A DNA stretch of 64,000 bases from positions 124,001 through 188,000 of the forward strand of contig NZ_CP096022.1 in assembly GCF_023115355.1 (NCBI RefSeq). The letters are read 5' to 3'. Under the pieces are notes generated by a model that ran no database searches, was not told the DNA's origin, and was given only the letters and a program-made list of their open reading frames with translations. This stretch comes from Halocatena salina (lineage in GTDB: Archaea; Halobacteriota; Halobacteria; Halobacteriales; Haloarculaceae). Position numbers and translations under genes: made by a program. Numbering within the stretch: position 1 is the first letter of the stretch; the number at the start of each line of letters is the position of its first letter. Below, one piece after another: positions 16,806-36,392 of the stretch.

Positions 16806-17783
16806 CTACGGTCGACCCTGTCTGTTCGAGAGTTGCGTGTGGGCGCCGATCAATCCATCGTGGATGGATAGATCGACGATACGTGCATCCGTATCCACGA
16901 TCGATCGGCGAACGGTTGCCGATTCGATCGTCGTTCCGGGAAAGACCACTGTCCGTTCGATGGTCGAATCGACGAGTGTCGCGTCGTCCATCACGTACAC
17001 GTCGTCGCCGATGGTTACGTTCTCGAGCGTCGCACTCTCAGCGACGTATGACTCACCGTCGAGCTGCCAGGCGAGGGCTTCGAGGTAGCTCTCCTGCGTT
17101 CCGATGTCGAACCATGCTCCATCGAATGTGTAGGCGTGGGTTGACTTTCGTTCCTGAAGCCACTGGACGAACCACCCCGGTTCGTCTGGATTATTGCCTT
17201 CGGCGAGATAGCAATCGAGCAGCGATAACGTCTCTCGTGGGAATCCATAGCAGGCAACCGAAACGAGTGAGCTGGTTGGATCATCGGGTTTCTCCGAAAA
17301 GCCGACGACACACCTATCGTCGAGTTCCAGCACGCCGTAAGGCGTTGCGTTCTCGGGTGTGCCCACGTCGTAGGCTGCGATCGTGGGTGCTGCCCACATC
17401 TCGAATGCATCGATAAAATCGGCGATATCGAAGCTAAACAGGTTATCACCCCCGATCACAACCATATCGTCCTCGATGTCTTCTCGTTCAACGAGCCGGG
17501 TGAGTGCACCGACGACGCCGAATTTCTCCCGTTCGGCACTCGATCGTTCGATCGACAGCTGGGGTTTCTCGAACTCACTGTCACGGAGATACGTGCTGAA
17601 TTCGGCACCGAATCGCTCGTTGGTGCTGACATATACCATCTCGATTCGATCCTCAATCTCCAGTTCCCGCAGGATGTGATCGATGACCGTCGCTTCGCCG
17701 ACCGGAAGGAACATCTTCGGTCGATGTTTCGTAATCGGCCAGAGCCGCGTGGCGTAGCCCCCCGCGAGGACGACAGCTTTCAT
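16806..17783 (-). CDS. Sugar-phosphate nucleotidyltransferase
   Basis: A 325-residue enzyme that would make a nucleotide sugar from a sugar 1-phosphate and an NTP. It opens with the signature MKAVVLAGGYATRLWPITKH and RPKMFLPVG. The metal-binding region is VVIGGDNLFSF, and the sugar-binding segment is ATPYGVLEL with VGFSEKPDDP. The last 70 residues are a left-handed beta-helix-like repeat (ATLENVTIGDDVYVMDDATL). It is similar to the glucose-1-phosphate thymidylyltransferase-like enzymes of archaeal N-glycosylation (AglF type). It is convergent with the GT2 gene and likely supplies donor sugar for this island. Confidence 0.88.
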   Translation of the reverse strand: MKAVVLAGGYATRLWPITKHRPKMFLPVGEATVIDHILRELEIEDRIEMVYVSTNERFGAEFSTYLRDSEFEKPQLSIERSSAEREKFGVVGALTRLVEREDIEDDMVVIGGDNLFSFDIADFIDAFEMWAAPTIAAYDVGTPENATPYGVLELDDRCVVGFSEKPDDPTSSLVSVACYGFPRETLSLLDCYLAEGNNPDEPGWFVQWLQERKSTHAYTFDGAWFDIGTQESYLEALAWQLDGESYVAESATLENVTIGDDVYVMDDATLVDSTIERTVVFPGTTIESATVRRSIVDTDARIVDLSIHDGLIGAHTQLSNRQGRP

Positions 17784-18456
17784 GTAGTTCCCTCACAACG
17801 TGTGGCGCCAAAGCAGTCGTTCGCGTTGCTCACAATGACAACGCCGGTGGTTGATCCATCGGCCGCTTCTCGTCTAGTAGTCACTTCTCCAAATTCCGGT
17901 TTCGTACGTGCGTGTCGTTTCATAGTAGCAGTGTCGTTCGTGTACGCTTCGAAGGGCAGTGAGCAGGTCCCGACAAACACAGATTCTGCCATTCGTCGCA
18001 CACGTCGGGCGTAGAGCCACCCCAAAATGACGGTCGCTTCGAAGTGCCCATCGAAAGCTAACTATCGTTTCGGGTGTGTCTCCACGTGTATTGCCACCCT
18101 GCATTGGGTTATCTCTTGTCCGAAATTCCACATAATTAACCGGGGACTGAGGCACAAATGTGGCCAAAATCGCCAGCGCTTCTCGAGATCGCTCCCGGAA
18201 ACAGCCCTCGGGATGCTATCGGTCATGGGAGGCAATGTGAAAATTATTTGGAAATAATTCATGTCCGAATTAGTAAACGATTACCACCGATCGTTTCATA
18301 GCGCTTGGTGTATGGTCACCACACAATTCTCCAGCCCACGGCAATTGACCTCATGCCTTTGGAAATCCCTAGAGTCCTTACGAACAGATCGTTCACTGGT
18401 TATAAACTGGCTTATTTATATCTTCACTAATAATAGGGATATTTAGCCAAAAACAC
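17784..18456. other. Intergenic region left of the IS6 element
   Basis: About 670 bases without a supported gene. Bases 18121-18215, read on the minus strand, resemble bases 19360-19440 read on the plus strand, with shared blocks such as ATTTTGG and AATTTGTGCC. So the two flanks of the IS6 element carry an inverted, diverged copy of the same upstream region. The short ORFs in this stretch have no family character. Confidence 0.4.
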
Positions 18457-19192
18457 GGCACTGTCTAGTTTAGCACTTCGTCGGCTGGCGTTCGTCCATC
18501 GAGCGATTGATGCGGTCTCTGATGATTGTAGTAGTGCACAAATTGTTCAATCCATCTGCGGGCACTCCGCCGACTGCCCACCCACGAGTTATGGAAACGG
18601 TCAACTCGCATTTTGAAGGTGTGATACCACTTCTCGATGAGGTTTCGGTCGGTATAGTCGACCTGTCCGTTCAACCCCAATCGAGCAAGGGCAGTCCGGT
18701 AGCCGAACTGATCGACGAGAAACACCGCCTCGGAGAGATCGTGTTTCTCGCGGAGTCCATGCAGGAACGCAGCTGCCGGATCGGTGCCGTGGCGTCCGAA
18801 CAACTGGGCGTCGAGAATCAACTTCGTGTCGAGGTCTATTGCAGCGTACAACCAAGACCATTCACCGTTAATCTTGACAGCAGTCTCATCAATCGCGACC
18901 CGCGACGGCGGCGGGTCAGAAACGCTGTCAGCCAGCCGGTGTACCCAGTTCCAAACCGCTCCGTGAGAGCGTTCGACGCCGAGTTCTGAAAGAATAGTTG
19001 TTATCTCCCGAAGTGAACAACCGGTTGCATGGAGACGGACGGCGAACGCCCTGACGGGCGTCGTCGTCCGCTCATTCTCCCAAGATTCTTCTAAATCTGT
19101 ATCGTAGCTCTCGCTGAGCAGGTCTGCGAGCATTTGATCCAACAAACTCAACGGCCTGCTCACCTCTCAAACTGGCTCAACTAGACAGTGCC
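18457..19192 (-). mobile_element. IS6-family insertion sequence
   Basis: A 736-base element with terminal inverted repeats. The left end at 18457 reads GGCACTGTCTAGTTTAGC and the complement of the right end at 19192 reads GGCACTGTCTAGTTGAGC, 17 of 18 identical. The single transposase gene fills the space between. The outside 8-base flanks (AAAAACAC left, TTCAGGTC right) are not direct repeats. The usual IS6 target duplication is thus missing, which suggests a later deletion or recombination at one end. The right end interrupts a winged-helix gene. Confidence 0.93.
18465..19163 (-). CDS. IS6-family transposase
   Basis: A 232-residue DDE transposase of the IS6 family (ISH14/15/29-like). An N-terminal HTH lies in TGCSLREITTILSELG. 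The catalytic triad can be followed as D in VAIDETAVKINGEWSWLYAA, D in VDYTDRNLIEKWYHTF and its neighbourhood, and E in the same NLIEKW block. The end FVHYYNHQRPHQSLDGRTPA is diagnostic. The length is normal and the frame is intact, so the element may still be active. A decayed relative lies at 22800-23203. Confidence 0.93.
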   Translation of the reverse strand: MSRPLSLLDQMLADLLSESYDTDLEESWENERTTTPVRAFAVRLHATGCSLREITTILSELGVERSHGAVWNWVHRLADSVSDPPPSRVAIDETAVKINGEWSWLYAAIDLDTKLILDAQLFGRHGTDPAAAFLHGLREKHDLSEAVFLVDQFGYRTALARLGLNGQVDYTDRNLIEKWYHTFKMRVDRFHNSWVGSRRSARRWIEQFVHYYNHQRPHQSLDGRTPADEVLN

Positions 19193-19317
19193 TTCAGGTC
19201 CAATTCGTTCGACAGCTGATTGGTGTTCATTGGACGCTCTTCTAGCGTGCGGACGATCCGTAACCGGTTTCGCCCGCCACGGGAGCCCCCAATGAGCCAC
19301 CATAGCAACTGTCGCAT
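19193..19317 (-). pseudogene. Truncated winged-helix regulator gene
   Basis: Only the first 40 or so codons remain. Translation from the ATG at 19317 gives MRQLLWWLIGGSRGG, then RNRLRIVRTLEERPMNTNQL, nearly the same as the intact regulator at 12101-12391. The homology stops at SNELDLK, exactly where the IS6 right end begins. The rest of the gene, and any DUF7521 partner, is not on the other side of the element. The insertion was therefore followed by loss of the downstream half. Confidence 0.85.
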
Positions 19318-19486
19318 TTAATAGCATTAGAGACTACTCTGCGTATATAGATTTGTCTTTCTACTCAGCCGCTTTCGGGAATTAGAGATGCTCTGGCCAT
19401 TTTGGGCTAATTTGTGCCCGACTCTTGTGGGATCAGTGCGTAAATTCGGAAATTGCTGATAAGCGTACGTACGCTTCTTCCCTGAT
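19318..19486. promoter_or_regulatory. Divergent upstream region of truncated regulator and small DUF7123-like gene
   Basis: Contains the AATTTGTGCC motif near 19410, also found near 12618 upstream of the intact paralogue. A diverged inverted copy of the block 19360-19440 lies at 18121-18215 on the other side of the IS6 element. The sequence probably carried the promoter of the winged-helix gene and still carries that of the small gene at 19487. Confidence 0.35.
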
Positions 19487-19738
19487 ATGGACGCGCGATC
19501 CGAGACCCAACCGAAGGGCAACGTGAAACGCAAGGCGCTAGAAGCCTATCTTCGTCGAAAAATCGCAGACGGACATCACTACTTCAAAAGAAGGAAAATA
19601 GCCGCAGAGACAGACCTGTCCTCGAAAGAAATTGGTGCTTTGCTCTTCCAACTCCAAGGTTCAGCGTCCGAATTTTCCGTTACTAAATGGGGTTACAGCG
19701 GTGGGACGACGTGGTACATCGAACGGAATTCCGAGTGA
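19487..19738 (+). CDS. Small DUF7123-like protein
   Basis: An 83-residue basic protein: KRKALEAYLRRKIADGHHYF, then AAETDLSSKEIGALLFQL and a final KWGYSGGTTWYIER. The pattern (a helical segment, a winged-helix-like SSKEIGALLF, a closing strand WGYS..TTW) fits the haloarchaeal family I know as DUF7123, proposed to be a small nucleic-acid-binding domain. It lies 72 bases before aglB on the same strand and may be co-transcribed with it. The function is unknown. Confidence 0.72.
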   Translation: MDARSETQPKGNVKRKALEAYLRRKIADGHHYFKRRKIAAETDLSSKEIGALLFQLQGSASEFSVTKWGYSGGTTWYIERNSE

Positions 19739-19810
19739 CCCGAAATAGCCCGCAGTTCCCTAGTCTCAACAAACCGACTCACCCCATATTTCCAGAGATC
19801 CTTCCCACGC

Positions 19811-22549
19811 ATGACTCAGTGGTCCGATCAACTCAACTCCGACACCGCGACTGCATGGCTCAAAGACCAATACCAGATCCCAGCTCTCCTACTCTTGGCA
19901 AGCTACATGTTATGGACTCGCATTCAAGGCTGGTCCACATTCGTAAGCAGCGGCCAAGTGTTATTCAGCGGCAATGACGCATGGTATCACTATCGGCAGG
20001 TTACGTATACCGTAGCAAACTTCCCGCAAACAATGCCGTTTGATCCGTGGACGTCATTCCCAACAGGAACCGTCTCTGGTCAATTTGGAACACTCTACGA
20101 CCAGCTCGTTGCAACCGTGGCACTCGTACTCGGTGCTGGAAGTCCCACGGAACAAACCATCGGTCTCACACTCCTGTTCACCCCGGCAGTTCTGGGGACG
20201 CTCGTGATTATCCCCACGTATCTACTTGGACGACACTTTGGTGGCCGACTTGCCGGTATCGGCGCTGTCGTCGTCTTAGCATTGACCCCCGGTGCATTCC
20301 TTCAACGGACCATGGTCGGCTTCTCCGATCATCACGCCGCTGAAACATTGTTCCAGGCGTTTGGAATGCTGGCTGTAATGCTTGCCGTCCAAACGGCTGA
20401 ACGTGAAAAACCCGTCTTTGAGGTGATTCAAGCGCGAGAGTTCCAAGCAGTCAAAAAACCATTCGTTCGCTCGATCCTTGCTGGAATTGCTGTAGCACTG
20501 TACGTGTCCGTTTGGCCACCTGGTGTCGTTATTGCGTTCATCCTTGCCGTATTCTATGGCTTACACCTGACCGCAGAGTTCATTCGTAACCGAAGCCCGG
20601 AACACGTCGCGCTTCAGGGGATCATCTCGTCACTGGTCACTGCACTCATCTTGCTTGTTCCGATGTCCACACTGGGACTCAGCTCGACGGATTTCTCACT
20701 CCTCCAGCCATTACTATTCGTTCTCGTTGCAGTTGGGCTCACGATTTTGGCTACCTTAGCTCGCTTCATCGAATCGCGCTCACTCCCGACAAAATACTAT
20801 CCTGGCATTCTCGGTGGAGGGACGATTGCCCTTGCATTACTTGTTCGAGTGATCGCCCCAACACAGTTCGAGTACTTCGTCAGTCAATTCTATCGTATTT
20901 TCGGGTATGATGCGAGTGCCAGTGCTCGAACAATCGGGGAAGCACAGCCAATTCCACTCGACTCCGTCGAGACATTCATGCTGGAGTCGTACGGGCTTGC
21001 TTTCCTCGCTGCAGTTGCAGGAGCTGTGCTTCTCATTACGAAGTATCTTCGCGCCCAAGATTCACGGGGATCGGATGTCGCCCTCCTAGTCTGGTTCGCG
21101 TTAATGACGATGGCGACTCTAACCCAGGTCCGCTTCGACTACTACCTCATCATCCCAGTCGCCGTGTTGACGGGTGTTTGTATCGCCTGGGTCAGTCGAA
21201 AAACAGGGCTACAGAAGCTCGATAACGTCCGGAACATCAGTGCATATCAAGTAATTATAGGAGTGCTGATCGTCTCTCTTCTAGTTGGTCCATTCGTCTC
21301 GTCAATTGGAGCGAGTGGAGTGACTCTTGACTCAACGACTGTCGCAGAGAGCAACCAGCCAGGTGAAGTCACGGCTTGGGAGGACAGTCTTGCCTGGCTT
21401 CAGTCGAACACCCCTTCGGAAGGAACTTATGGAAACCCGAACGCAACAGCAATGTCGTACCAAGCGACGGTTTCACAAACTGCGGATTACGAATACCCAT
21501 CAGGAGCGTACGGGGTGGTATCGTGGTGGGATTACGGCCACTTCATCACAACCCTCGGTGAACGGATCCCGGTTGCAAATCCGTTCCAACAAGGCTCGAC
21601 GACCGCTGCGGATTTCCTCCTGTCCAGTAATGAAACCGCAGCAAACGACTTCGTCACTTGGGACGACGAGCAAGCGCAGTACGTGATGCTTGACTGGAAA
21701 CTGACTACCCCCGGATCGGAAAAATATACCGCACCGACGGCCTTTACGACCGATGAAAACCTGACCTCAACAGATCTTGTCGAACCAGTGTACCAGTCAA
21801 CGAATACTAGCATACAGTTTGCCGGGTACATCAAACAACAGCAACACTATGACAGTCTTCGTGTCCGTTTGTACCAATACTACGGAAGTGCGGTTGATAC
21901 GCAACCAATCGTCGTTGACTGGGAAACTCAACAGGTACAGACATCGAGTGGCGACATCACTACTATCGCTACAACCCCGTCTGACGGCCAGTTCATCAAG
22001 CAGTTCGAAAATATGACTGCTGCCGAAGCATACGTTCAGAGTGACGGAACCTCACAGATTGGCGGTGTTTCCGGGCTGCCCTCCGACCGAATTCCAGCAC
22101 TGGAACACTACCGGTTAGTTCACGCCAGCGACTCACAGTACAGCGTGTCTACTCTCACAGGAATATCTCAAGGGTCGTGGGTGAAGACATTCGAACGCGT
22201 GCCGGGCGCAGAGATCGACGGGCGAGCACCGGCTAATTCAACGGTTACTGCCTCGGTTCAGCTATCAATCCCGAACCAGAACTCAACATTCACGTATACC
22301 CAGCAAGCGGAAACTGGAGCGGATGGCGAGTTCACAATGACACTCCCCTACTCTACCACAGGATATGAGAATTGGGGCGTTGACGCAGGATACACCAACG
22401 TCAGTGTTCAGGCGACAGGCCCGTATAGCTTCAGTCTCACGAACACAACGAACGAATCCACGACGGCGGCCACTACGATTGACGTTCCGGAAGCGAAGGT
22501 AATTGGAGAAGACACAACCGCGATCAACGTTACCCTCTCTACTGACTGA
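19811..22549 (+). CDS. aglB: Oligosaccharyltransferase AglB (STT3 family)
   Basis: A 912-residue catalytic subunit that transfers a lipid-linked glycan to Asn in N-X-S/T sequons of exported proteins. The first extracytoplasmic loop has the metal-binding Asp in SGNDAWYHYRQVTYT; the second acidic motif is in GFSDHHAAETLFQ. About 12 hydrophobic segments reach to residue 500. The acceptor-binding WWDYG motif is at residues 572-576, inside YGVVSWWDYGHFITT. The large C-terminal domain is Thr/Ser-rich. The length is normal for haloarchaeal AglB. It is probably the endpoint of the glycosylation genes upstream, despite the IS6 insertion between them. Confidence 0.95.
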   Translation: MTQWSDQLNSDTATAWLKDQYQIPALLLLASYMLWTRIQGWSTFVSSGQVLFSGNDAWYHYRQVTYTVANFPQTMPFDPWTSFPTGTVSGQFGTLYDQLVATVALVLGAGSPTEQTIGLTLLFTPAVLGTLVIIPTYLLGRHFGGRLAGIGAVVVLALTPGAFLQRTMVGFSDHHAAETLFQAFGMLAVMLAVQTAEREKPVFEVIQAREFQAVKKPFVRSILAGIAVALYVSVWPPGVVIAFILAVFYGLHLTAEFIRNRSPEHVALQGIISSLVTALILLVPMSTLGLSSTDFSLLQPLLFVLVAVGLTILATLARFIESRSLPTKYYPGILGGGTIALALLVRVIAPTQFEYFVSQFYRIFGYDASASARTIGEAQPIPLDSVETFMLESYGLAFLAAVAGAVLLITKYLRAQDSRGSDVALLVWFALMTMATLTQVRFDYYLIIPVAVLTGVCIAWVSRKTGLQKLDNVRNISAYQVIIGVLIVSLLVGPFVSSIGASGVTLDSTTVAESNQPGEVTAWEDSLAWLQSNTPSEGTYGNPNATAMSYQATVSQTADYEYPSGAYGVVSWWDYGHFITTLGERIPVANPFQQGSTTAADFLLSSNETAANDFVTWDDEQAQYVMLDWKLTTPGSEKYTAPTAFTTDENLTSTDLVEPVYQSTNTSIQFAGYIKQQQHYDSLRVRLYQYYGSAVDTQPIVVDWETQQVQTSSGDITTIATTPSDGQFIKQFENMTAAEAYVQSDGTSQIGGVSGLPSDRIPALEHYRLVHASDSQYSVSTLTGISQGSWVKTFERVPGAEIDGRAPANSTVTASVQLSIPNQNSTFTYTQQAETGADGEFTMTLPYSTTGYENWGVDAGYTNVSVQATGPYSFSLTNTTNESTTAATTIDVPEAKVIGEDTTAINVTLSTD

Positions 22550-22642
22550 GTGACATCGCTTCTCTCTATTGATGAGTAAAGCGAGCACCTCAGAGCTTGA
22601 ACTTGAGGCGGTTCACTCGTAAGCAAGTCTAGATTCCAATAG

Positions 22643-22799
22643 TTCCTAACTTCGGAGAATAGATTTCTGTAAACGGCTTTTACTTACGCATGCTGAAGTG
22701 GAATTTGCAATATTATGCCACAAAAAGGCTTCTATCGGTATGCTATTCGATCTGTGATACTGTGGCAAGACTCCCTGAAAGCCCCTGACTAGCGCGCGA
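22643..22799 (+). repeat. Dispersed repeat family, copy 2
   Basis: Starts TTCCTAACTTCGGAGAATAG and TTTCTGTAAACGGC, then GTGGAATTTGC, CCACAAAAAGGCTTCTATCGG, TATGCTATTCGATCTGTGAT and ACTGTGGC. The blocks match the copy at 30965 in order and spacing up to the common GCGCGATC near 22797. There the match stops, where the IS6 relic begins, so that relic has cut the repeat's right end. Confidence 0.7.
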
Positions 22800-23203
22800 T
22801 CACCTCTGTTTGTCAGAAGTTGGCTCAGTAGATTCGTAATGCATAGCTATCTGCGAAGTATAGATCCCGAGCCCAGCTGTGCATGAGCAATCTACCGCGA
22901 TCTCGTTGACCACGAGCTGCGCCGCCGAAGCCGTCGGCGGGTCTGAAGTCTTCTCACCGACACGGTGAACCCACTGAAACGCCGCTTGATGCGAGCGGAA
23001 GACGCTGAAGATTTCGAGCGTCGCAGCCATCTCCCGAAGTGAAACACCCATTGAACGGAGCCGCACTACGATCGTTCTCAGGATGCTCGCGGTGCTCTCG
23101 TTGTCTCAATACTCAATAAAGGGCGTCTCGATGGTCTCTGTGAGCTGTTTTTGGAGGTTCACCCAGCCAGTCCAAGAACTGCTCATATATTGCCTAGACA
23201 GTA
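22800..23203 (-). pseudogene. Decayed IS6-family transposase
   Basis: A relic of an IS6 element. The minus-strand frame from 23066 to 22800 includes MRLRSMGVSLREMAATLEIF, then AAFQWVHRVGEKTSDPPTAS and VNEIAVD, colinear with the intact IS6 transposase at 18465 (CSLREITTILSE, WVHRLADSVSDPPPS, IDETAV). Earlier codons near 23180-23070 contain in-frame stops. After the first catalytic region the homology is lost. The sequence CCTAGACAGTACC at 23191-23203 resembles the IS6 terminal repeat. The element is inactive. Confidence 0.75.
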
Positions 23204-23895
23204 CCGAAGACACCGTTTTTCATTCGTGGAACGATGTCACTTGAGTTGAACTGGAGAAGCTGTTCAACTTCGTGTTCAAATCCGAGTTCAGTGAGCCACC
23301 GTGCCGTACCGCTAGTGCGGATATCCGTTTTTATCGTTTCTTCTGCAGTTTCCGTGAGGTTACCCGAAAAATGACGCTTGACGAGTTCGACCCCGGCACT
23401 GTCCTCCGGTGTTGGATTCCCGCGACGGCCAGCGGCGACCAACCACACGTCACGACCGCGGCCTTCGAGAGCTGACGCGATTGCCGCAGCGTTGACCGTA
23501 CTCGCAACAAATATCTCACGATCATAGCCGATCCGCTCGACCGCCCGCGTTCCATTCGAGGTCAGGATACCGACTGGCCGTTCCTCAATGTTGTGGGTGT
23601 CAAGTACCGATGGCAGCGGTCCTGAATCGAACCCGTCGATTGCCCGCCCCTCTTGCTCGCCAACAAGGAACGCGTCGTTAGTGGTCTCCGCAAAGGCGAG
23701 CGCGGTGTCGACATTGGCAAAGGGCTTGACATAGGCTGCATCCGCCTCGAACAGCTGCACAATGCTCGTCGAGGAGATGATAACGTCGATAACCACGAAG
23801 TCCCCGGCGGGCGTCGGTTCGGGAACGTCTTCGAGCCGGTCAAGTGTGTGTACTACGGGCTCGTCGGTGTTTACCTCCGTTCGCTCGTGGCTCAT
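23194..23895 (-). CDS. comB: ComB-like 2-phosphosulfolactate phosphatase family protein
   Basis: A 233-residue protein of the ComB family, Mg-dependent phosphatases that in coenzyme M biosynthesis release sulfolactate. Seen here are VVIDVIISSTSIVQLFEADA, FLVGEQEGRAIDGFDSGPLP, GILTSNGTRAVERI and GRRGNPTPEDSAGVELVKRH, all family blocks. Haloarchaea are not known to need coenzyme M, so another phosphate ester is likely. Its ATG overlaps the kinase-like stop by 4 bases (ATGA), so the two are translated together. The final codons GTV and the stop lie within the IS6 terminal-repeat relic, so the original C-terminus may have been altered. Confidence 0.82.
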   Translation of the reverse strand: MSHERTEVNTDEPVVHTLDRLEDVPEPTPAGDFVVIDVIISSTSIVQLFEADAAYVKPFANVDTALAFAETTNDAFLVGEQEGRAIDGFDSGPLPSVLDTHNIEERPVGILTSNGTRAVERIGYDREIFVASTVNAAAIASALEGRGRDVWLVAAGRRGNPTPEDSAGVELVKRHFSGNLTETAEETIKTDIRTSGTARWLTELGFEHEVEQLLQFNSSDIVPRMKNGVFGTV

Positions 23896-24950
23896 AGGGG
23901 CTGGTCTCCCTCGATGATGCTGACCGCCTGCTCGGCCATCGCCGGCACACCGTCGTCCATCATCTCGTAAAACCGGTTGTCACTATTGCCCATTAGATAT
24001 CGTGCGTAGAACATCTCCCCGAGAGCGGCCATTTTGTAGACAGCAAGAGCTCGGTAGAATCGGTGGTTGTCGACCGTAAATCCGGTTTTTTCCTCGTACC
24101 GTTCGGTGAGAGCGGCACGCGTGGGATACTCGCCGGTGGTCAGGAACGGCGGAGAGATGGTCTGCATGATGGGTGGAAGCGGGTCCTTCTCTTCTGGCCA
24201 GAAAAACAACAGCCAGCCGAGGTCACAGAGGGGATCGCCCAGCGTACTCATTTCCCAGTCGAGCACGCCAGCGATTTCGGGAGGTGTTTCCGGTCCGAAA
24301 ATCACGTTGTCGAGTTTGTAGTCACCGTGAACCAGCGCGGCTGGCGGATTGGTGGGAACGTTTTCGGTGAGCCAGTCCCCAACTCGTCCGATTTCTGGGA
24401 CTTCCCGTTTGGCAGTCGTCTCCTCGAACGCCCACTCGATCTGTTCGGTCCAGCGCTTGACCTGCCGTTCGGTGAACCCCTCTGGGTCACCGAAGTCATC
24501 CAGACCGACTGACTCGTAGTCGACGGTGTGAATAGCAGCGAGCGTGTCGACCATTTCCTCACCGATACGACGCTGGTGGTCCGGGTCGTTGAATCGACCG
24601 GGTGCCGAAAATCGTAGCACATCGCCGTCGACGCGCTCCATCACGTAGAAGACGCTCCCAATGACCGACGTATCCTCGCAGGCCGCGACCGTCCGCGGCA
24701 CCGGAACGTCGGTACCTTGGAGTGCGTCGATGGGAGTGTACTCTCGAAGGATGTCGTGGGCGGTGTCGGCGGTTTCGCCCGGCGGCGGACGACGGACGAC
24801 CAGTTCTCGGTCGCCCCACGTCACGAACAGGGTCTCGTTCGAGAAGCCCTCCTCGTGGCGTTTCACGTCGAACGTCTCGGTCTCGCCTAGTTCGCTTGCG
24901 AGGAACTCCCGCAAACCGTCACGGTCAACGAGGTCGGTTACTTCTGTCAT
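23892..24950 (-). CDS. APH-like kinase (ACAD10/11-type phosphotransferase domain)
   Basis: A 352-residue kinase of the aminoglycoside-phosphotransferase-like family. Visible motifs are the Brenner catalytic loop HGDYKLDNVIFGPE and the metal-binding block VLDWEMSTLGDPLCDLGW. An N-terminal lobe has RHEEGFSNETLFVTW and ELVVRRPP. These, with FYVMERVDGDVLR, match the stand-alone kinase and the kinase domain fused to the dehydrogenase in ACAD10/ACAD11, where it phosphorylates 4-hydroxyacyl-CoA. The acyl-CoA dehydrogenase is divergent, 540 bases away. It is the first gene of a pair with the ComB-like phosphatase. Confidence 0.88.
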   Translation of the reverse strand: MTEVTDLVDRDGLREFLASELGETETFDVKRHEEGFSNETLFVTWGDRELVVRRPPPGETADTAHDILREYTPIDALQGTDVPVPRTVAACEDTSVIGSVFYVMERVDGDVLRFSAPGRFNDPDHQRRIGEEMVDTLAAIHTVDYESVGLDDFGDPEGFTERQVKRWTEQIEWAFEETTAKREVPEIGRVGDWLTENVPTNPPAALVHGDYKLDNVIFGPETPPEIAGVLDWEMSTLGDPLCDLGWLLFFWPEEKDPLPPIMQTISPPFLTTGEYPTRAALTERYEEKTGFTVDNHRFYRALAVYKMAALGEMFYARYLMGNSDNRFYEMMDDGVPAMAEQAVSIIEGDQPL

Positions 24951-25494
24951 TGCAACTCAGACGTCCCCCGTGCGTACTCGGAGTTCTGATAGGTGATGTT
25001 CACACAGACTTTATTGAAAGAATCGAAGGTTAGTGTTGGGCCTTCTATACGAGGTCGTTGTCTGGATGAGCGGTCCTGAACGAGTGAACGTAGCTCTCGA
25101 GAGAAGGCAACTGCGGCGCGTCAGTTCCCGAGCTAACTATCAATATCCAGCAACTCGCGCGGCTCACCATCGCTATCACCAAAGCAACAATGATCAAACA
25201 CGATGTATGCGTACCCAGCATCGTGGAATCGCTTGACGAATGCGGTCTCATCCTCGAATCGAAAATCGGTTCGGGACGCCCATCCTCCCTGAGGAGGGGA
25301 AAGCAACCATTATCACAGCTTTTCCTCAGATGTGGGGCAAGTTTTCCGTCAGGTTCTATGCGACGTGCAGCGTTTGCGTCACACCTTTCATCGTTACAGT
25401 GAGCGCTGAAATCCAAGTCCGTATTCACGACCCTTACGGGCTCCCTCGTATCGAAGGCTCAACATTAACTACCAGTTCTCTCGATGAAGCCAGT
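24951..25494. promoter_or_regulatory. Divergent control region with long inverted repeat
   Basis: About 540 bases between the kinase and the acyl-CoA dehydrogenase. Plus-strand 24968-25054 matches the reverse complement of 25444-25530 at about 70 percent by eye, so about 87 bases of the dehydrogenase's upstream region and first codons are copied, inverted, before the kinase. On the minus strand the copy translates MNITYQNSEYAR (GTG start), against MDIRYQDSERAR for the dehydrogenase. It then ends at a TGA that overlaps the kinase ATG. The middle (25055-25443) has no convincing gene. Confidence 0.6.
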
Positions 25495-26778
25495 GTGGAT
25501 ATCAGATATCAGGACTCCGAGCGTGCACGAGAGGTCAGCGACCGAACTCGACGGTTCATCGATGAAGTAGTGCTCCCACAGGAGCGGGAACTGCTCGGCC
25601 AGCGCGACGAGCGCAGCGACGCCGACCGTCACGCGGAGGGCGAGCGATTGGTTGAGGAACTGCGCGAAGAGGCGCGCAAGCACGACGTGTTCGGTCCACA
25701 GATTCCCGAGAAGTACGGTGGCCTCGGTCTCGACTTCGGCGACCTGTTGCCGGTGTTCGAGCAGGCTGGCCGGAGTATCTTCGCCATGTCAGCGATGCAT
25801 GTCGCCGCGCCCGACGAGGGAAATATGCATATCTTGGAGGAGGCGGGCACAGAAAAACAGAAGGAAGAATTCCTCCGGCCGTTGGCGAACTGCGAAGTCA
25901 CGTCCGGGTTCTCCATGACTGAACCGATGAACGGGGCGGGGTCGGATGCGAAGAAGATCAAGACTACGGCGAAAAAGGACGGCGACGAGTGGGTCATCGA
26001 CGGCCACAAGTGGTGGACGACACAGGGCAGCGATGCTGACTTCCTGATCGTTGCCGCCCGCACCGACCTCGACGCCCACCCCTACGTCGGTACCTCGCTG
26101 TTCGTCGTGCCGGGCGACGCCAACGGCGTGGACGTGGCTCGGGACATCCCTCACATGGGTGAGGCTGGGATTGCCCACTCCGAAATCATCTACGACGGTG
26201 TCCGAGTCCCCGAGGAGAACCTGCTCGGAGCCGAAAATGGCGGGCTTGCCATCGCCCAGCAGCGCCTCGTTCCCGCCCGACTCACTCATTGTATGCGTTT
26301 CATGGGGATGGCAGACCGCTCGCTCGACGTCGCGAAGGCCTATATGGACGAGCGCACCGCCTACGGCGAGCGCCTCAGCGAGAAACAGAACGCCCGATTT
26401 GAGATCGCCGACGCAGAGATGCGCCTGCATTCCGCCCGGACAATGGTGCGTCACGCCGCCCGAACCTACGCCGAAACGGGTGATGCGAGCACTGAGTGTG
26501 CGATGTCGAAGGTGTTCGCCGCCGAAACCGTACAGGAGGTTATCGACACTTGTGTACAGGCCTGCGGCGGCAACGGCATCGGGAAGGACCTCCCGCTCGC
26601 TGATTTCTACGAGAATGTGCGGTGTTTCCGCATCATCGATGGGGCCGACGAAGCACACTTGCGCTCGGTCGCAAAGCGCGCGTTCGACGACGAGGAAATC
26701 AAACCCGAAGAGGTCGAACACGTCACGCGATTCCGTGCTGATACCGATTTGACCAGTGTAGGAGAGGATGCATCATGA
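25495..26778 (+). CDS. Acyl-CoA dehydrogenase (ACAD10/11-like)
   Basis: A 427-residue FAD-dependent dehydrogenase. The GTG at 25495 was chosen because MDIRYQDSERAREVSDRTRR begins the family's first helix, and the 85 codons upstream look non-coding. Family blocks: GPQIPEKYGGLGLDFGDLLP, GFSMTEPMNGAGSDAKKIKT, HKWWTTQGSDADFLIV, CVQACGGNGIGKDLPLADFY and the end RIIDGADEAHLRSVAKR. These are closest in style to ACAD10/11 dehydrogenase domains. It may eliminate phosphate from, or oxidise, a phosphoacyl-CoA made by the divergent kinase. Its stop overlaps the next ATG. Confidence 0.9.
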   Translation: MDIRYQDSERAREVSDRTRRFIDEVVLPQERELLGQRDERSDADRHAEGERLVEELREEARKHDVFGPQIPEKYGGLGLDFGDLLPVFEQAGRSIFAMSAMHVAAPDEGNMHILEEAGTEKQKEEFLRPLANCEVTSGFSMTEPMNGAGSDAKKIKTTAKKDGDEWVIDGHKWWTTQGSDADFLIVAARTDLDAHPYVGTSLFVVPGDANGVDVARDIPHMGEAGIAHSEIIYDGVRVPEENLLGAENGGLAIAQQRLVPARLTHCMRFMGMADRSLDVAKAYMDERTAYGERLSEKQNARFEIADAEMRLHSARTMVRHAARTYAETGDASTECAMSKVFAAETVQEVIDTCVQACGGNGIGKDLPLADFYENVRCFRIIDGADEAHLRSVAKRAFDDEEIKPEEVEHVTRFRADTDLTSVGEDAS

Positions 26779-27548
26779 GCACGCTCGATAGATTCAGACT
26801 GGACGACGACGTGGTACTGATTACAGGCGCTGCCTCGGGTATCGGAAAGACCTACTCTGAGGCGTGTGCCGACACAGGTGCAACGCTCGCACTCGCAGAC
26901 ATCGATGCCGAGGGGGTCGAGGCGGTTGCCGACGAGCTCGATGCCGAGACGATCGCCATGGAGGTCGACGTCACTGACCACGAAGCGGTCGCCGAGATGG
27001 TCGAACGGGTCACGGAAACATTCGGCGGTCTCGACGTCGCTTTCGCCAACGCCGGTATCGGCCGACTGAGTTCACCAGTCAATGGGTACTCCATCGAGGA
27101 GTGGGATGACGTAATGGATGTCAATCTCGATGGAGTCTTCTACACCATCCGGGAAGCTTCTAGGGTAATGGAGGAAGGTGGAAGGATAATCACGACGGCG
27201 TCGGTGCTCAGTTCGGTCGCCTCTGAGTACCCCGGCGTCGCTGCCTACGTCGCCTCGAAGGGTGGCGTCGCTCAACTCACCAAACAGGCTGCCGCTGATC
27301 TCGGTAGACGAGGGATTCGAGTCAACGCGATCGCACCCGGGTGGACACATACCGGTATCGGTGGTGGCGCATTCCGCAAGGATTCGGGAATGGATGCGAT
27401 GCACGAGCAGATGGCCGAGGAGACGCTGCTCGGTCGACTCGGCGAACCGGACGATCTGAAGGGTATCGCGCTCTTTCTCGCGAGCGATGCTTCGGCATAC
27501 TGCACGGGGAGCGTATTCACGGTTGACGGAGGCTGGACGACCACATGA
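26775..27548 (+). CDS. Short-chain dehydrogenase/reductase
   Basis: A 257-residue classical SDR. The cofactor motif TGAASGIGKTY lies near residue 16, an acidic residue after the second strand (LADIDAEG) favours NAD over NADP, and the catalytic Y-x-x-x-K is in AAYVASKGGVAQL. The Ser is in TTASVLSSVASE. The C-terminal VFTVDGGWTTT is typical. The ATG overlaps the acyl-CoA dehydrogenase stop (ATGA). It could act as the 3-hydroxyacyl-CoA dehydrogenase step of the same degradation pathway, but the substrate is inferred from context only. Confidence 0.9.
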   Translation: MSTLDRFRLDDDVVLITGAASGIGKTYSEACADTGATLALADIDAEGVEAVADELDAETIAMEVDVTDHEAVAEMVERVTETFGGLDVAFANAGIGRLSSPVNGYSIEEWDDVMDVNLDGVFYTIREASRVMEEGGRIITTASVLSSVASEYPGVAAYVASKGGVAQLTKQAAADLGRRGIRVNAIAPGWTHTGIGGGAFRKDSGMDAMHEQMAEETLLGRLGEPDDLKGIALFLASDASAYCTGSVFTVDGGWTTT

Positions 27549-27615
27549 GACGAGAACTCCAACGAGCGGAGCCAACCGAACGTCGTTTCATCACCATCCA
27601 GTGTGCACCACACCC

Positions 27616-28623
27616 ATGACAGTACCACTTGACCTCGTAGTGAGCGTTTCAGACCACGACTCGCTCGATGGAGTGGCCGCACAGGCCCGTCGTGCCGAGG
27701 AGCACGGCTTCGAGCGTGTCTCGGCTGGCGAGACGACTGGCTGGGATATGGTGACGACATTCGCCGTCATCGGCGAGCGAACAGACCATATTGGACTTTC
27801 GAACGACGTGCTCTCTCCGTATGGCCGCTCGCCGACCGTCCTCGCCCAGACCGCCTTGACGATGCACGAGGCGACCGGCAGGCGATTCAGGCTCGGACTG
27901 GGGACGAGTTCGCCCGCCATCGCCGAACGCTGGCACGGAGTAGCCTTCGACCGACCGCTTCGACGTCTCCGGGAGACCATCGATATCGTCCGGGCGGTGT
28001 ACGAAGGCGGCTCCGTGAGCTACGATGGTGAGGTCTACCAGCTGGGCGGCCTTTCCTACGACCGGTCCGTGCCCGAGAATCCGCCACCGATAGACGTCGC
28101 CGCTCTTGGCCCGAAGGCTGTCGAACTCGCTGGGCGGTTCGCTGACGGGTGGGTACCACAGTTGTTTACTGTTGCGGGCCTCAATGAGCGAATGGATGAC
28201 CTCCGACGCGGAGCGGAGTTGGGCAGCCGTGACCCAGCGGACCTACGGGTTGCCCCGCTCGTGCGGTGTTTCGCCAGTGATGACCCAGAGCGTGCCCGTG
28301 AGGAAACTCGGATGATGGTGGCCTTTCTCATCGGTGCGTACGGTCCCTTTTATGGCCAATCTATCGCCGAACAGGGTTACGAGGATGTCGTTGGAGAGAT
28401 ACGAGCCGCGTGGGAGGACCGGGATTTAGCTACCATGGCATCCGCGCTTCCCGACGACCTCTTGGATGGTGTTGCCGCTGCGGGGACACCAGAAGAGGTG
28501 TGCGAGCGAGTCAAGCAGTTCGCCAATATCGATAACGTGAGCGCGGTACGCATCGGCTTCGTCCGCGGAATGGGACCAAAGGACAAGCAAACGACGATGG
28601 AAGCACTCGAGGAGATACTGTAG
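27616..28623 (+). CDS. LLM-class F420-dependent oxidoreductase
   Basis: A 335-residue luciferase-like TIM-barrel enzyme. It starts MTVPLDLVVSVSDHDSLDGV and shows RRAEEHGFERVSAGETTGWD, RRFRLGLGTSSPAIAERWHG, the block RRLRETIDIVRAVYEGGSVS and PIDVAALGPKAVELAGRFAD, all characteristic of the F420-dependent subgroup (methylene-H4MPT-reductase-like). It would perform a hydride transfer with F420 or a monooxygenation with flavin. It lies 67 bases after the SDR and is probably in the same transcription unit as the acyl-CoA dehydrogenase. Confidence 0.88.
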   Translation: MTVPLDLVVSVSDHDSLDGVAAQARRAEEHGFERVSAGETTGWDMVTTFAVIGERTDHIGLSNDVLSPYGRSPTVLAQTALTMHEATGRRFRLGLGTSSPAIAERWHGVAFDRPLRRLRETIDIVRAVYEGGSVSYDGEVYQLGGLSYDRSVPENPPPIDVAALGPKAVELAGRFADGWVPQLFTVAGLNERMDDLRRGAELGSRDPADLRVAPLVRCFASDDPERAREETRMMVAFLIGAYGPFYGQSIAEQGYEDVVGEIRAAWEDRDLATMASALPDDLLDGVAAAGTPEEVCERVKQFANIDNVSAVRIGFVRGMGPKDKQTTMEALEEIL

Positions 28624-29157: not shown

Positions 29158-30762
29158 ATGAGTGCCGCAAATGAGTCTGAACGGGTGCTTGATGATGGAC
29201 TTACATGGCTCGAAACGGCGCCAACGCTCGTTGACTTCATTCGGGAGCTGAACGTGCATCTGTTCTTTCAGGACGAGGACGACGAGCGCTTCGAAATACT
29301 CGCGTACGATGCTGTCCCAACCGTTCGTGCACTGTTCTGCCGTGAATTCGCTGGGCTCTCGTGGCACGGCCTCTACGAGTGGCTCTCCACAGAGGACCGA
29401 GCCGTTCGGCTTGGCTTCGATCCGGCGAAGTTCGGCCCCTACAATACGGCTCCAACCCGTCAAACGCTCACGACCGCGTGGAATGTCCACCTCTCAGATG
29501 AGACCAAGCGTTCGATCCTCTCAGTGAGTGAGCGCCTCGTCGCTGCTGCGTACGAGAACGAGACCACCCTTGATCTCCGGCTACCCCGACACGTCGACGA
29601 GACCGATTCAGATCTCCGTGAACGACATGTCGGTGAGTTCACCACCGAGCAAATTCGCAAACACGTCCGGCATGCTCGCGAGACTGTCTTCGGTGCGTTC
29701 GACTCTGGTCGAGCCGGGAATGCGGTGTACCCCGACAGTCGCTTCGATGAACTTCAGGCACTGATGGCGCTTGGCGGCTCTGGAACGCCTCAGGGCCAAT
29801 CGCGTATGGAGAATTTCTTCGGCGAGGACTACACGCCTCACGGAGATACCCACCTCCGGACGGTCAAGCAATACACGCCTGCAATGATTCAAGCAGGCTT
29901 CGATCGGTCGATCGACAATCTCCTTGACGCAGTCAATCATCTCCAGATCCTTCAACCACCCGTCACTGTCACCATCGACATTACGACCTGGCCCTACCAC
30001 GCCGAGGACGACATTCCTGCCGAGGTCAGCGGCACGAAGCGAGCCGACGAGACAGCCTACAAGTTTGCCACGCTCTCGCTGGTCGGCAAGAGCATGCCGA
30101 TCGTCTTGGCATATGCACCGGTGATCGAGAGTTCCGAGTGGGACGATAATCCACCACACCGTTACCATCGAACCGTGCGAAGACTAGTTCAGCGAGCGCA
30201 GGAATTTGTGACGATCGACCTCGTTCTCGCAGACCGTGGCTTCGACTCGATGAAGGTCTACCAGACGTTGGACAATCTCGGCGTTCGGTACCTCCTGCCG
30301 AAGATCGAACGCTCCCCCGAACTCGAGTGTATCGATCGGATGGACCAGGATGGTGAAGACGTTGCGGTTGAGCAGGTGAACGTCGCAGTCGAGACGGGCT
30401 CGCACGAGTGTCGCATCCTCTACGTGCCCAGGAGGGATGATGAGACACAGGCATTCATCACGAACGAGTCGATCGATCCCGAGGACGCCGAAGCATGGGT
30501 CGACCACTACGCCTATCGGTGGTGTATCGAAAACGAGTATCGCTCGATCAAGCAGGAATTTCTTGCAAGGACATCCTCGAAAGACCACGCACTGCGCATC
30601 TACTACTTCGTGTTTGGGATTCTGATGTACAACGTCTGGCGGCTCACGGATGTCCTGCTGAAAGCGACGGTGTCACGTGAGATCACCGACTATACGCCGG
30701 TTATCACAGCTGGTGAGTTGGCTGACTGGATCGCGATCCATCTCCAACTCGACGCTGGCTAA
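29158..30762 (+). CDS. ISH-type DDE transposase
   Basis: A 534-residue transposase with an intact frame. The catalytic triad can be placed at D274 (TVTIDITTWPYH), D359 (VLADRGFDSMKVY) and E458 (RWCIENEYRSIKQEF). After the triad come the usual FGILMYNVWRLTDVLL and a short tail. The N-terminal 240 residues carry the DNA-binding part (HLFFQDEDDERFEILAYDAV). It is a long relative of the IS4-like ISH transposases; I could not assign an exact ISH family. A paralogue with a nonsense codon lies at 47202-48884, and a more distant one at 35010-36392. Confidence 0.88.
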   Translation: MSAANESERVLDDGLTWLETAPTLVDFIRELNVHLFFQDEDDERFEILAYDAVPTVRALFCREFAGLSWHGLYEWLSTEDRAVRLGFDPAKFGPYNTAPTRQTLTTAWNVHLSDETKRSILSVSERLVAAAYENETTLDLRLPRHVDETDSDLRERHVGEFTTEQIRKHVRHARETVFGAFDSGRAGNAVYPDSRFDELQALMALGGSGTPQGQSRMENFFGEDYTPHGDTHLRTVKQYTPAMIQAGFDRSIDNLLDAVNHLQILQPPVTVTIDITTWPYHAEDDIPAEVSGTKRADETAYKFATLSLVGKSMPIVLAYAPVIESSEWDDNPPHRYHRTVRRLVQRAQEFVTIDLVLADRGFDSMKVYQTLDNLGVRYLLPKIERSPELECIDRMDQDGEDVAVEQVNVAVETGSHECRILYVPRRDDETQAFITNESIDPEDAEAWVDHYAYRWCIENEYRSIKQEFLARTSSKDHALRIYYFVFGILMYNVWRLTDVLLKATVSREITDYTPVITAGELADWIAIHLQLDAG

Positions 30763-31352: not shown

Positions 31353-32030
31353 ATGGCAATCGTCGCAGAAATTCTCCTTGCGGACCGAACGCTCCCGTTA
31401 GTTGGTCTAGCGAGTTCAATGCCAAGTAACAACGTGCCGATCTCCAATATAATCCCGCTCGAAGATGGACGACTTCTCGTTGAAGTGACTGTAGCCGACA
31501 ACTGGCGAAAGGCGTTCGAGCAGAGTGTCGATACCCAACCTGAAATCGTTGACGCGATAGAAATCGGACGGACAGCAGAAGGATGGTTCTATCGATTGAC
31601 CATCGACGACGAATCTGGACTCGTTGTCTCTCACGACCACGAGAATTTTAGAGGCGTATTGATGAACGCGACGGTTACCGACGAAGGGCTGCGCCATCAG
31701 AAGGTGTTCTCCGACTACGATGCGCTTGACACGCACCGAGACCTCTGCGCGGCCCATGACATCTCGTTCGACTTGCTGAATATCGCAGCGGACCCCGAAA
31801 ACCCTGGAGAACCAGATCAGTTTGGACTCACAAAGAAACAGTATCGGGCAATTTCGATCGCGTTCGCCCAGGGGTATTACGATTCGCCACGTGCTCTGTC
31901 AACGCAGGAACTCGCTAACGAACTTGGGATCTCTGGTCCATCTGCGTCTGATCTCCTCCGCCGAGCCGAGAAGCAACTCATCAGTCAGACCCTCGGTCCG
32001 ATGTTGGCAGTAAATCCGCGTGCCCAGTAG
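31353..32030 (+). CDS. HTH-10 (bat-type) transcriptional regulator, copy 1
   Basis: A 225-residue regulator. The C-terminal 55 residues are the HTH-10 domain (PF04967 type): FGLTKKQYRAISIAFAQGYY, DSPRALSTQELANELGISGP, SASDLLRRAEKQLI. The N-terminal part is the bat-associated sensor-like module (MAIVAEILLADRTLPLVGLA) with no recognisable PAS or GAF domain. Haloarchaeal proteins of this form regulate neighbouring metabolic genes. A paralogue of the same length stands at 33162-33839, with a convergent SDR gene between them. Confidence 0.9.
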   Translation: MAIVAEILLADRTLPLVGLASSMPSNNVPISNIIPLEDGRLLVEVTVADNWRKAFEQSVDTQPEIVDAIEIGRTAEGWFYRLTIDDESGLVVSHDHENFRGVLMNATVTDEGLRHQKVFSDYDALDTHRDLCAAHDISFDLLNIAADPENPGEPDQFGLTKKQYRAISIAFAQGYYDSPRALSTQELANELGISGPSASDLLRRAEKQLISQTLGPMLAVNPRAQ

Positions 32031-33161: not shown

Positions 33162-33839
33162 ATGACAGTGACTGCGGAACTCCTCATCAGTTCACCCTCG
33201 CTTCCGTTCGTTAGTTTCGCAGAATCGTTACCGTCCAATCAACTCGAGTGTGAACACGGCCTGTGTCTCGGAGGGGACTCTCAGGTGTTCGTCGTCCATC
33301 TCGACCCGGCTGATGGTGTTACCGAAGATGATCTCATTGCTCTCGATGAAGTAGTAGGGACAACCCCCATTGGACGCGAGAGCGGCAGGGACGTCTATCA
33401 GCTCAGCGTCAAACTGGAGGATATTGTTTCGGAAGCGTTCGTTCCCGGACGGTTCGCTAAGGCTCAGATAGAACTAACGATCATCACTTCAGAGGGCTGG
33501 TACGAAAAGAAGATATTTCGGGATTATGAGTCGTTCAATAATATGCGGAATCATTGCGATGAGCATGGCATTCGGGTTGATCTTATCTCGATCACACAAG
33601 ATTCTCCGTCCCCAGATGAACACACACAGTATGGGCTAACTGACCGGCAATACGAGGCATTGGCGCTCGCTATCTCTCGCGGATACTACGATAATCCCCG
33701 ACAGGCCACGGCCGGCGACTTAGCTGAGGAGATGGGTATTTCTCAACCCTCAATGTCGAATCTTCTTCGCCGAGGAGAGCGCCAGTTACTCACGTCGACG
33801 ATCGGGACACAGCCATCGCTGACTAACCTTTCGACGTGA
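33162..33839 (+). CDS. HTH-10 (bat-type) transcriptional regulator, copy 2
   Basis: A 225-residue paralogue of the regulator at 31353. The start MTVTAELLISSPSLPFVSFA aligns with MAIVAEILLADRTLPLVGLA. The HTH domain is YGLTDRQYEALALAISRGYY, DNPRQATAGDLAEEMGISQP, SMSNLLRRGERQLL. It is divergent from the SDR gene (160 bases between starts) and upstream of the aldo/keto reductase. Overall identity to copy 1 looks moderate, so the duplication is not recent. Confidence 0.9.
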   Translation: MTVTAELLISSPSLPFVSFAESLPSNQLECEHGLCLGGDSQVFVVHLDPADGVTEDDLIALDEVVGTTPIGRESGRDVYQLSVKLEDIVSEAFVPGRFAKAQIELTIITSEGWYEKKIFRDYESFNNMRNHCDEHGIRVDLISITQDSPSPDEHTQYGLTDRQYEALALAISRGYYDNPRQATAGDLAEEMGISQPSMSNLLRRGERQLLTSTIGTQPSLTNLST

Positions 33840-35009: not shown

Positions 35010-36392
35010 GTGGTTGAATCAGATGCTGACAGCCGTCCCGAACACCAGTTCATCGCCGAGAAGACCGACGAGGGCTGGCAGCAGGCCCAACCGTTTGTGA
35101 CCGACGTCTTCGCGCTCGATCGGGGACAGAACTGGGAGATCCACGAGAACGCCTTCTGGGAGCAACATGCCTATATGGGGATGCGCGAGGACATGTACGC
35201 CCGCAGCGGTCCGGCCTCGTTCTCCCTCGATACGACGCGCGAGCGTATCCCAACTGGATCGACCCACCGCTACCAGATCGGGAAACCCTCCGTCACGGAG
35301 ATCCGAGAGATGCTCCGGAACACCACTCGGATGCTCATTGCACGGGCTCGCCAGAACGGCGAACTCGACGGGTCAGTCTTTGCGGCCATCCACGTGACCA
35401 AGGGCTTCCCGTTCACTGGCGATACAGAAGATCACAAGGACGACATTCTCGGATATAAGGACGGCAACGAGTACTACCAATGGGCGGTGTGCAAGATCGT
35501 CGGGATGGATGTTCCGCTGGTCCTTGACGCCATGCCACGCGAGCGCGGCCAGTCGAAGCACGAGATCGTCGAGAAGCTTCTGTCGCAGGCAACCGAGATG
35601 GTCGACATCGACCTCGTGATGATGGATCGGGAGTTCGATAGCGAGTCGGTGAAGGACACCTGCGAGGAGTACGACGTTCACTACCTGAATCCGACGCGCA
35701 TCTTCGCCACCAGCGACGAAGCAGACACCATCGCATGGATGTACCGCAACGGCAAGCGCTTCCACGTCACGGAGGGGAAAGCCGACGATGGAACGCCCAC
35801 GCGCAAGCAGGTCTATCTCCCGAAGCAATCGAACTCGGATGATGAGGATGAGGACGACGATCTCTCAGCAGTCTGGACGGGGATGTGCGGTGAGTGGGAG
35901 TTTGAGGACATAGAGGGCGAACCGAGCGAGGGGATGTCGTTCTCGCGGCTACTGGCGGACATCCGGCGCGAAGAGGATGTCGAAGAGCGGAAGAAGAAAG
36001 CACAGGAGGGAGAGGTGGACACCAGCGAAACCGTCGTGTTCGAGACGAATCACCCCTACGTAACCGCCAGTAACGCCGACGATCAGCAGATGGACGGGAG
36101 GGCGTTCATCCACATGATCGAGCGCCTCATCCGATGGTATCGCCGCCGTTGGGGTATCGAGAACGGCTTCAAGAAGCAGAAGCACTTCATGGTGCGAACC
36201 ACCTCAACTGAGTGCGACTATCGGTTCTTCAATTTCGCGTTCGCGTGCGTGCTGTATAACGTTTGGCGGCTGGTCGATCTGCTGGTGAAACTCGCCATCG
36301 ACGGCGAGAACACGTCGTACGCACCGCGCGTCGATGCGAACCAGTTTCTGACCGTCGCCAAGCAATTCTACGGTCTCGACCCGCCTGATTGA
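35010..36392 (+). CDS. ISH-type transposase with a substituted first catalytic Asp
   Basis: A 460-residue transposase, GTG start; the open frame extends 19 codons further upstream without an ATG. It resembles the other two ISH transposases in the catalytic core: VDIDLVMMDREFDSESVKD (second Asp) and RRWGIENGFKKQKHFM (Glu). At the first Asp position it has His128 (VFAAIHVTKGF) where relatives have AIDIT. One base change (GAC to CAC) explains it. An acidic insert (about residues 275-285, SDDEDEDDDLSA) separates the second and third motifs. It is likely inactive unless a different residue serves. Confidence 0.8.
   Translation: MVESDADSRPEHQFIAEKTDEGWQQAQPFVTDVFALDRGQNWEIHENAFWEQHAYMGMREDMYARSGPASFSLDTTRERIPTGSTHRYQIGKPSVTEIREMLRNTTRMLIARARQNGELDGSVFAAIHVTKGFPFTGDTEDHKDDILGYKDGNEYYQWAVCKIVGMDVPLVLDAMPRERGQSKHEIVEKLLSQATEMVDIDLVMMDREFDSESVKDTCEEYDVHYLNPTRIFATSDEADTIAWMYRNGKRFHVTEGKADDGTPTRKQVYLPKQSNSDDEDEDDDLSAVWTGMCGEWEFEDIEGEPSEGMSFSRLLADIRREEDVEERKKKAQEGEVDTSETVVFETNHPYVTASNADDQQMDGRAFIHMIERLIRWYRRRWGIENGFKKQKHFMVRTTSTECDYRFFNFAFACVLYNVWRLVDLLVKLAIDGENTSYAPRVDANQFLTVAKQFYGLDPPD

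Follow-up and report, generated by a model that had tools for sequence, protein, structure and literature searches.

The 64,000-nucleotide stretch of Halocatena salina DNA analysed here (referred to below as the window) is part of contig C4 (365 kb; NZ_CP096022.1) of a 4.0-Mb haloarchaeal genome. At positions 23194-27548 it carries a four-gene unit composed of genes for a ComB-fold protein, a kinase of the aminoglycoside phosphotransferase (APH) type, an acyl-CoA dehydrogenase (ACAD) and a short-chain dehydrogenase/reductase (SDR) (Table 1). An earlier note on this DNA had described an APH-like kinase with a ComB-like phosphatase, divergent from an ACAD, an SDR and an F420-type enzyme; all five genes are present in the list of open reading frames (ORFs) and were confirmed by matches to Pfam and TIGR profiles, although the ComB gene falls outside the coordinate range which that note gave.

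Table 1. Positions (in the window) of the haloarchaeal unit and of the gene that follows it
Feature	Position	Strand	Evidence or remark
ComB-fold (PF04029) putative phosphatase, haloarchaeal subfamily	23194..23895	-	PF04029, E 2.7e-38
APH-type kinase, LvaA / ACAD10-11 kinase-domain type, putative 4-hydroxyacyl-CoA kinase	23892..24950	-	PF01636, E 8.7e-54
Intergenic region separating the divergent arms	24951..25494	.	545 bp
ACAD, LvaC/ACAD10-11 type	25495..26778	+	N, M and C domains; catalytic Asp; HCMR motif
SDR oxidoreductase, putative LvaD-like 4-oxoacyl-CoA reductase	26775..27548	+	PF13561
LLM F420-dependent oxidoreductase, outside the conserved unit	27616..28623	+	TIGR04024, 477 bits (cut-off 345)

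The unit consists of two divergently oriented arms, each of which is tightly packed: the ATG of the ComB gene overlaps the kinase stop codon by 4 bases (ATGA) on the minus strand, and the start of the SDR gene overlaps the ACAD stop codon by 4 bases (26775-26778) on the plus strand. The ACAD frame is open from position 25240 (512 aa), with an N-terminal extension that is non-homologous to related proteins; since the homology to these relatives begins near the GTG at 25495, this codon is the likely start. Similarly, the TIGR04024 match of the F420 protein begins only at residue 48, and translation therefore most likely starts at 27616 and not at 27487.

The best PDB sequence matches of the window ACAD were 4hr3, followed by ACAD11 (8v3u, 8v3v and 2wbi). 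A cryo-EM study of ACAD11 assigned the role of catalytic base to D753 and traced the phosphate pocket to R626, H634 and R637; variants with substituted pocket residues showed a disrupted ACAD step (PMC12440821). The window protein contains every published ACAD10/11/LvaC signature residue (R626, R631, H634, C635, M636, R637 and D753 in the ACAD11 numbering): its HCMR/phosphate-pocket stretch is QQRLVPARLTHCMR, and the catalytic Asp (in place of Glu) lies within FRIIDGADEAH. The full signature was also found in 36 other sequences (haloarchaeal, bacterial and ACAD11), while two more deviate at C635 alone. None of the eight other ACADs of the window genome shows this pattern, and six of them have Glu at the base position. 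In a maximum-likelihood tree, with bacterial kinase-linked ACADs and ACAD11 representing the LvaC side, the LvaC/ACAD11-type proteins were split from the other ACADs of the genome with a support of 100/100. The placement of the window ACAD within the ACAD10/11/LvaC type is thus supported at the sequence level.

The kinase, which contains the motifs HGDYKLDN and DWEMSTLGDP, gave its best PDB matches with 9o56 (an “aminoglycoside phosphotransferase”), 3dxp and the kinase domain of ACAD11. It retains the catalytic Asp of the HGD motif (D220), the following Asn (N225), R176 and the motif AHDxxRE. The Asp, the Asn and R176 are also found in the outgroup 9fsg, which leaves AHDxxRE as the sole discriminating motif. 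The putative CoA-binding Arg beside the alphaC Glu (RE of AHDxxRE) is present in the kinase and missing in 9fsg, the published R86 not being matched by number. The tree placed the haloarchaeal kinases nearest to the bacterial and ACAD11 kinases and far from 9fsg (support of 89/98, with one remote outgroup), the branch order within the haloarchaeal group being poorly resolved. These data favour the assignment of the kinase to the ACAD10/11 type. For both proteins the trees and the active-site residues agree with the types proposed in the earlier note, the kinase tree less firmly than that of the ACADs, and neither protein grouped with unrelated families.

An AlphaFold2 model of the protein encoded behind the kinase (pLDDT 92.6) has the ComB fold (TM 0.84 to 1vr0), and no other fold was matched. 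Residues D37, E80, N114-G115-T116, N135 and D165 are common to the three solved chains of the known ComB, a 2-phosphosulfolactate phosphatase (1vr0, 2yyv and 2z0j), and are invariant in 19/19 relatives. The overall identity to these chains is only 22-27%, and in the haloarchaeal subfamily the canonical Arg following the first Asp (position 40) and the NS-P motif are replaced. The protein passed the PF04029 cut-off, but its scores were far under every ComB equivalog cut-off. Because the core residues of ComB are invariant while the Arg and the NS-P motif are replaced, we infer that the protein is an active phosphatase with a different substrate.

A true 2-phosphosulfolactate phosphatase that adjoins the kinase by chance would account for the PF04029 match and the fold, and the window genome does contain, on another contig, a homologue of ComA, the enzyme that would make phosphosulfolactate. 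Among the 19 genomes carrying the ComB subfamily, however, ComA was found in three and is missing from 16; moreover, the low equivalog scores, the replaced canonical residues and a coupling to the kinase that is conserved in unlike surroundings make this explanation scarcely credible. On the same grounds (low scores, the general lack of ComA and the replaced residues), a role in coenzyme M synthesis as the general function of the gene was rejected. The ComA homologue of the window genome is located at G000:C1:1450444-1451190; others occur in G043 (strain YIM A00010, the nearest relative of the window) and G075. We also observed a distant ComB-like family (26-35% identical) that is widespread in haloarchaea; its representative on plasmid pSTJ001 of Halobacterium hubeiense (L138, 3935-4681) is coupled to a PHP-domain gene near ABC/ECF transporter genes and not to the kinase.

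The conservation of the unit was surveyed by searching 146 genomes of the family for homologues of the kinase, ComB, ACAD and F420 proteins and mapping the regions around the matches; the ComB alignment was also scanned over prokaryote species genomes. This ComB subfamily was detected in 23 genomes, all of them either haloarchaeal or euryarchaeal metagenome-assembled genomes (MAGs); the named haloarchaeal carriers include Halorientalis pallida, H. persicus, H. regularis, Haloglomus halophilum and Halovenus carboxidivorans. The identity to the window protein is 45-62% across the carriers and 99% in one near relative. In 18 of the 23 genomes a kinase gene, intact or cut by the contig end, immediately precedes the ComB gene, and in 14 loci the ComB start is placed -20 to +23 bases from the kinase stop. 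In a nineteenth genome (G047) an orphan ComB gene is preceded by a fragment matching the last 72 kinase residues, and in G096 the neighbouring genes are as in Halovenus, but the kinase is gone. The ACAD gene is divergent from the kinase-ComB pair in 13 genomes, and in eight of these it is also followed by the SDR gene, so that the neighbourhood of kinase, phosphatase and ACAD genes, whose co-occurrence the earlier note proposed to survey, is conserved.

The genes outside the unit vary among the genera (HNH, peptidase S49-like, DUF5814, PAS/response regulator, alpha/beta hydrolase and topoisomerase VI), and a comparison of these surroundings in several genera gave no hint of a substrate. A chance adjacency of the kinase and ComB genes was rejected in view of their association in 18/23 genomes at 45-62% ComB identity, the changing surroundings and the tight spacing. 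Other haloarchaeal kinases (58-64% identical) pair divergently with ACADs of the same type and have no ComB gene beside them; the ComB-fold protein therefore belongs, as an accessory, to a single branch of the system.

The SDR copy behind the ACAD gene is 78-81% identical in six further genomes and 98% identical in G043. The latter strain and the window share 98.2% identity over 17308-27580, the end of this region being a junction between the SDR and F420 genes. The F420 enzyme, which the earlier note had included in the cluster, was rejected as a member of the module: its homologue is found beside the kinase or ACAD in no other mapped unit, and the sequence of G043 diverges before the gene is reached. 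The F420 gene is a third copy of the TIGR04024 type in the window genome and is 77% identical to the copy on contig C2.

We propose that the unit is a haloarchaeal module related to the bacterial lva system, in which the ComB-fold protein acts as a phosphatase that repairs stalled phospho-intermediates. The sequence data establish the order of the genes and its conservation, their families, the active-site residues and the ComB fold, whereas the reactions, the chain length of the substrate and the substrate and purpose of the phosphatase are all inferred; we consider this reading as a whole to be probable. The module would channel 4-hydroxy acyl-CoAs into beta-oxidation, with the SDR giving 4-oxo acyl-CoAs access to the same route. 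The kinase would phosphorylate the 4-hydroxyl group of the acyl-CoA, and the ACAD would then eliminate the phosphate by means of its Asp base, FAD and the Arg/His/Arg pocket to give a 2-enoyl-CoA with no net oxidation; for this part of the scheme our confidence is high. The putative LvaD-like SDR could convert the 4-oxo form to the 4-hydroxy substrate. The translationally coupled ComB-fold protein would regenerate the hydroxy form from stalled 4-phosphoacyl-CoA, or from free 4-phospho acid, and would in this way keep phospho-intermediates from piling up and tying up CoA. The free 4-phospho acid, which has been seen in mammalian cells and is likely to arise there from CoA-ester hydrolysis (PMC11342911), could on our own argument be a dead end, because the ACAD10/11 kinases require a CoA ester (PMC12440821). 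The earlier note had suggested a possible proofreading or reversing role of the ComB-like protein; for the catalytic repair role taken by itself, we regard the balance as even.

Several observations weigh against the proposed module. There is no CoA ligase gene within the unit, and ComB is missing from most haloarchaeal kinase-ACAD pairs and is therefore not essential to the route. The haloarchaeal ACADs form a sister clade of the bacterial kinase-linked ACADs and ACAD11 and are not nested within them, so their substrate may differ. Given that the haloarchaeal proteins, kinases included, form a clade of their own, the same phosphorylation-elimination chemistry might be applied to another acid (one that is branched, cyclic or of isoprenoid origin, for example, or one with its hydroxyl group at a carbon other than C4), and the silence of the surroundings with respect to the substrate is compatible with such a role. 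The phosphate pocket of ACAD11 is fully kept, however, and ACAD10 acts on 4-hydroxy and not on 5- or 6-hydroxy acids (PMC11342911), and we judge a different substrate to be improbable.

The nearest studied analogue of the phosphatase also speaks against a catalytic role: the HAD domain of human ACAD10 restrains its kinase and has negligible phosphatase activity (PMC11342911). By analogy, the pathway might operate as proposed with the ComB-fold protein acting as a brake, which binds and restrains the kinase instead of hydrolysing its product; the tight coupling to the kinase gene, which suggests a fixed stoichiometry, would suit such a function. On the other hand, the core residues of the solved ComB proteins are invariant in the 19 relatives, while in the HAD domain of ACAD10 the DxD motif is no longer complete (PMC11342911). 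We therefore find a brake unlikely and retain the phosphatase as the favoured role.

Some further features of the region should be mentioned. The spacing between the kinase and ACAD genes is 545 bp in the window and in G043, compared with 77-127 bp in other A-type relatives. The divergent promoter region (24951-25494) thus holds approximately 0.4 kb of extra DNA. A repeated or mobile element was considered as its source and rejected, as the genome holds the extra DNA only once and a check for inverted repeats was negative. The unit is flanked by three transposase-like genes of the rve_3/DDE and DDE_Tnp_1 types (18465-19163, 29158-30762 and 35010-36392). A gene for an AglB-type oligosaccharyltransferase is located at 19811-22549, and two HTH_10 (Bat-like) regulators are encoded at 31353-32030 and 33162-33839, near SDR and aldo/keto reductase genes.

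The haloarchaeal unit can be compared with several known systems. Kinases and ACADs of this type convert 4-hydroxyacyl-CoA, via 4-phosphoacyl-CoA, to 2-enoyl-CoA (PMC11342911, PMC12440821). The separation of the two proteins, which the earlier note emphasised, is not new but the known bacterial form, exemplified by LvaA and LvaC of Pseudomonas putida (PMC12440821, PMC11342911). The bacterial lva operon resembles the unit in having separate kinase, ACAD and SDR genes and an ACAD with the catalytic Asp and the HCMR motif; its SDR, LvaD, reduces levulinyl-CoA to 4-hydroxyvaleryl-CoA (PMC11342911, PMC12440821). The haloarchaeal unit differs in its two divergent arms, in the kinase-coupled ComB-fold gene and in an ACAD of the archaeal sister clade. 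No lvaB- or lvaE-like gene stood out in the ORF list of the unit, on which no search with LvaB or LvaE profiles was made.

There is also a bacterial precedent for a phosphatase gene next to that of the kinase. The lva cluster of P. citronellolis LA18T has a histidine phosphatase gene instead of lvaB (PMC6692424), and in this and similar bacterial clusters the kinase, phosphatase, ACAD and SDR genes occur together, with the phosphatase gene adjoining that of the kinase. Their phosphatase is a histidine phosphatase (PF00300), whereas that of the haloarchaea has the ComB fold (PF04029). In bacterial plasmid records such a gene adjoins the kinase gene in 12 of 14 inspected regions, a proportion biased by the choice of these regions through a search with one such phosphatase; ten of the 12 also have a full-signature ACAD. 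The regions are derived from Azoarcus, Caballeronia, Burkholderia, Streptomyces, Azospirillum, Deinococcus, Ideonella, Pseudoalteromonas and Rhodobacterales. The adjoining, often overlapping, genes beside LvaA-type kinases were recorded at L106, L125-L132, L134, L135 and L137 (Proteobacteria, Deinococcus and Streptomyces).

For P. citronellolis it has been proposed that the histidine phosphatase takes part in the main path (PMC6692424), and the ComB-fold protein might likewise share with the ACAD the removal of the phosphate in the forward reaction. Plain hydrolysis of 4-phosphoacyl-CoA would, however, regenerate 4-hydroxyacyl-CoA and lead nowhere; moreover, ACAD10/11 eliminate the phosphate on their own (PMC12440821), and many kinase-ACAD pairs lack ComB. 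We consider such a forward role very improbable and prefer repair as the function of the ComB-fold protein.

In haloarchaea, a HAD hydrolase is a second kind of phosphatase partner. A gene of this kind lies <200 bases from the ACAD gene in 12/12 Haloferax-like (genus g3) genomes having this ACAD (G007, G009, G013, G014, G020, G026, G030, G031, G034, G036, G037 and G038); a further such locus is L103 (4879-5601). The kinase-ACAD-HAD set is carried by plasmid pHME132 of Haloferax mediterranei. Its divergent kinase and ACAD are of the same types as those of the window (62-63% identity), but the HAD gene adjoins the ACAD gene there, whereas ComB adjoins the kinase gene in the window. The growth of H. 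mediterranei on levulinic acid (PMC12455835) fits our model, and this set is a candidate gene basis for it. With the search terms tried, we found no paper on this route in haloarchaea. The unit would extend to the archaea the breakdown of 4-hydroxy acids through phospho-elimination.

Mammalian ACAD10 and ACAD11 share with the unit the kinase and ACAD types and their diagnostic residues, and ACAD10 also has the phosphatase-like HAD domain. In these proteins, however, the domains are fused in one chain, and the HAD domain does not have the ComB fold. The phosphatase which the earlier note regarded as a new element is therefore new in its ComB fold, while a phosphatase partner as such was already known from P. 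citronellolis and ACAD10. The role of the bacterial histidine phosphatase is a proposal (PMC6692424), and for the ACAD10 HAD domain restraint of the kinase is the only known effect (PMC11342911). The haloarchaeal unit adds a third, unrelated and apparently catalytic version, which is separately encoded and tightly coupled to the kinase. The reason for the pairing of a phosphatase with a kinase whose product is short-lived can therefore be studied with purified proteins and gene deletions.

To conclude, what is new here is the ComB fold as the phosphatase partner of the kinase, together with the observation that phosphatases of at least three unrelated folds (ComB, histidine phosphatase and HAD) are associated with it. 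It is conceivable, and we put this forward tentatively, that the kinase gained such a partner independently at least three times, that the disposal or repair of phospho-products is a general need of the pathway, and that the ComB subfamily is the first of its fold to act on phospho-acyl-CoAs or phospho-fatty acids. In the proposed module, the ComB-fold protein occupies the place taken by the histidine phosphatase in bacteria and by the HAD protein or domain in the Haloferax-like genomes and in ACAD10.

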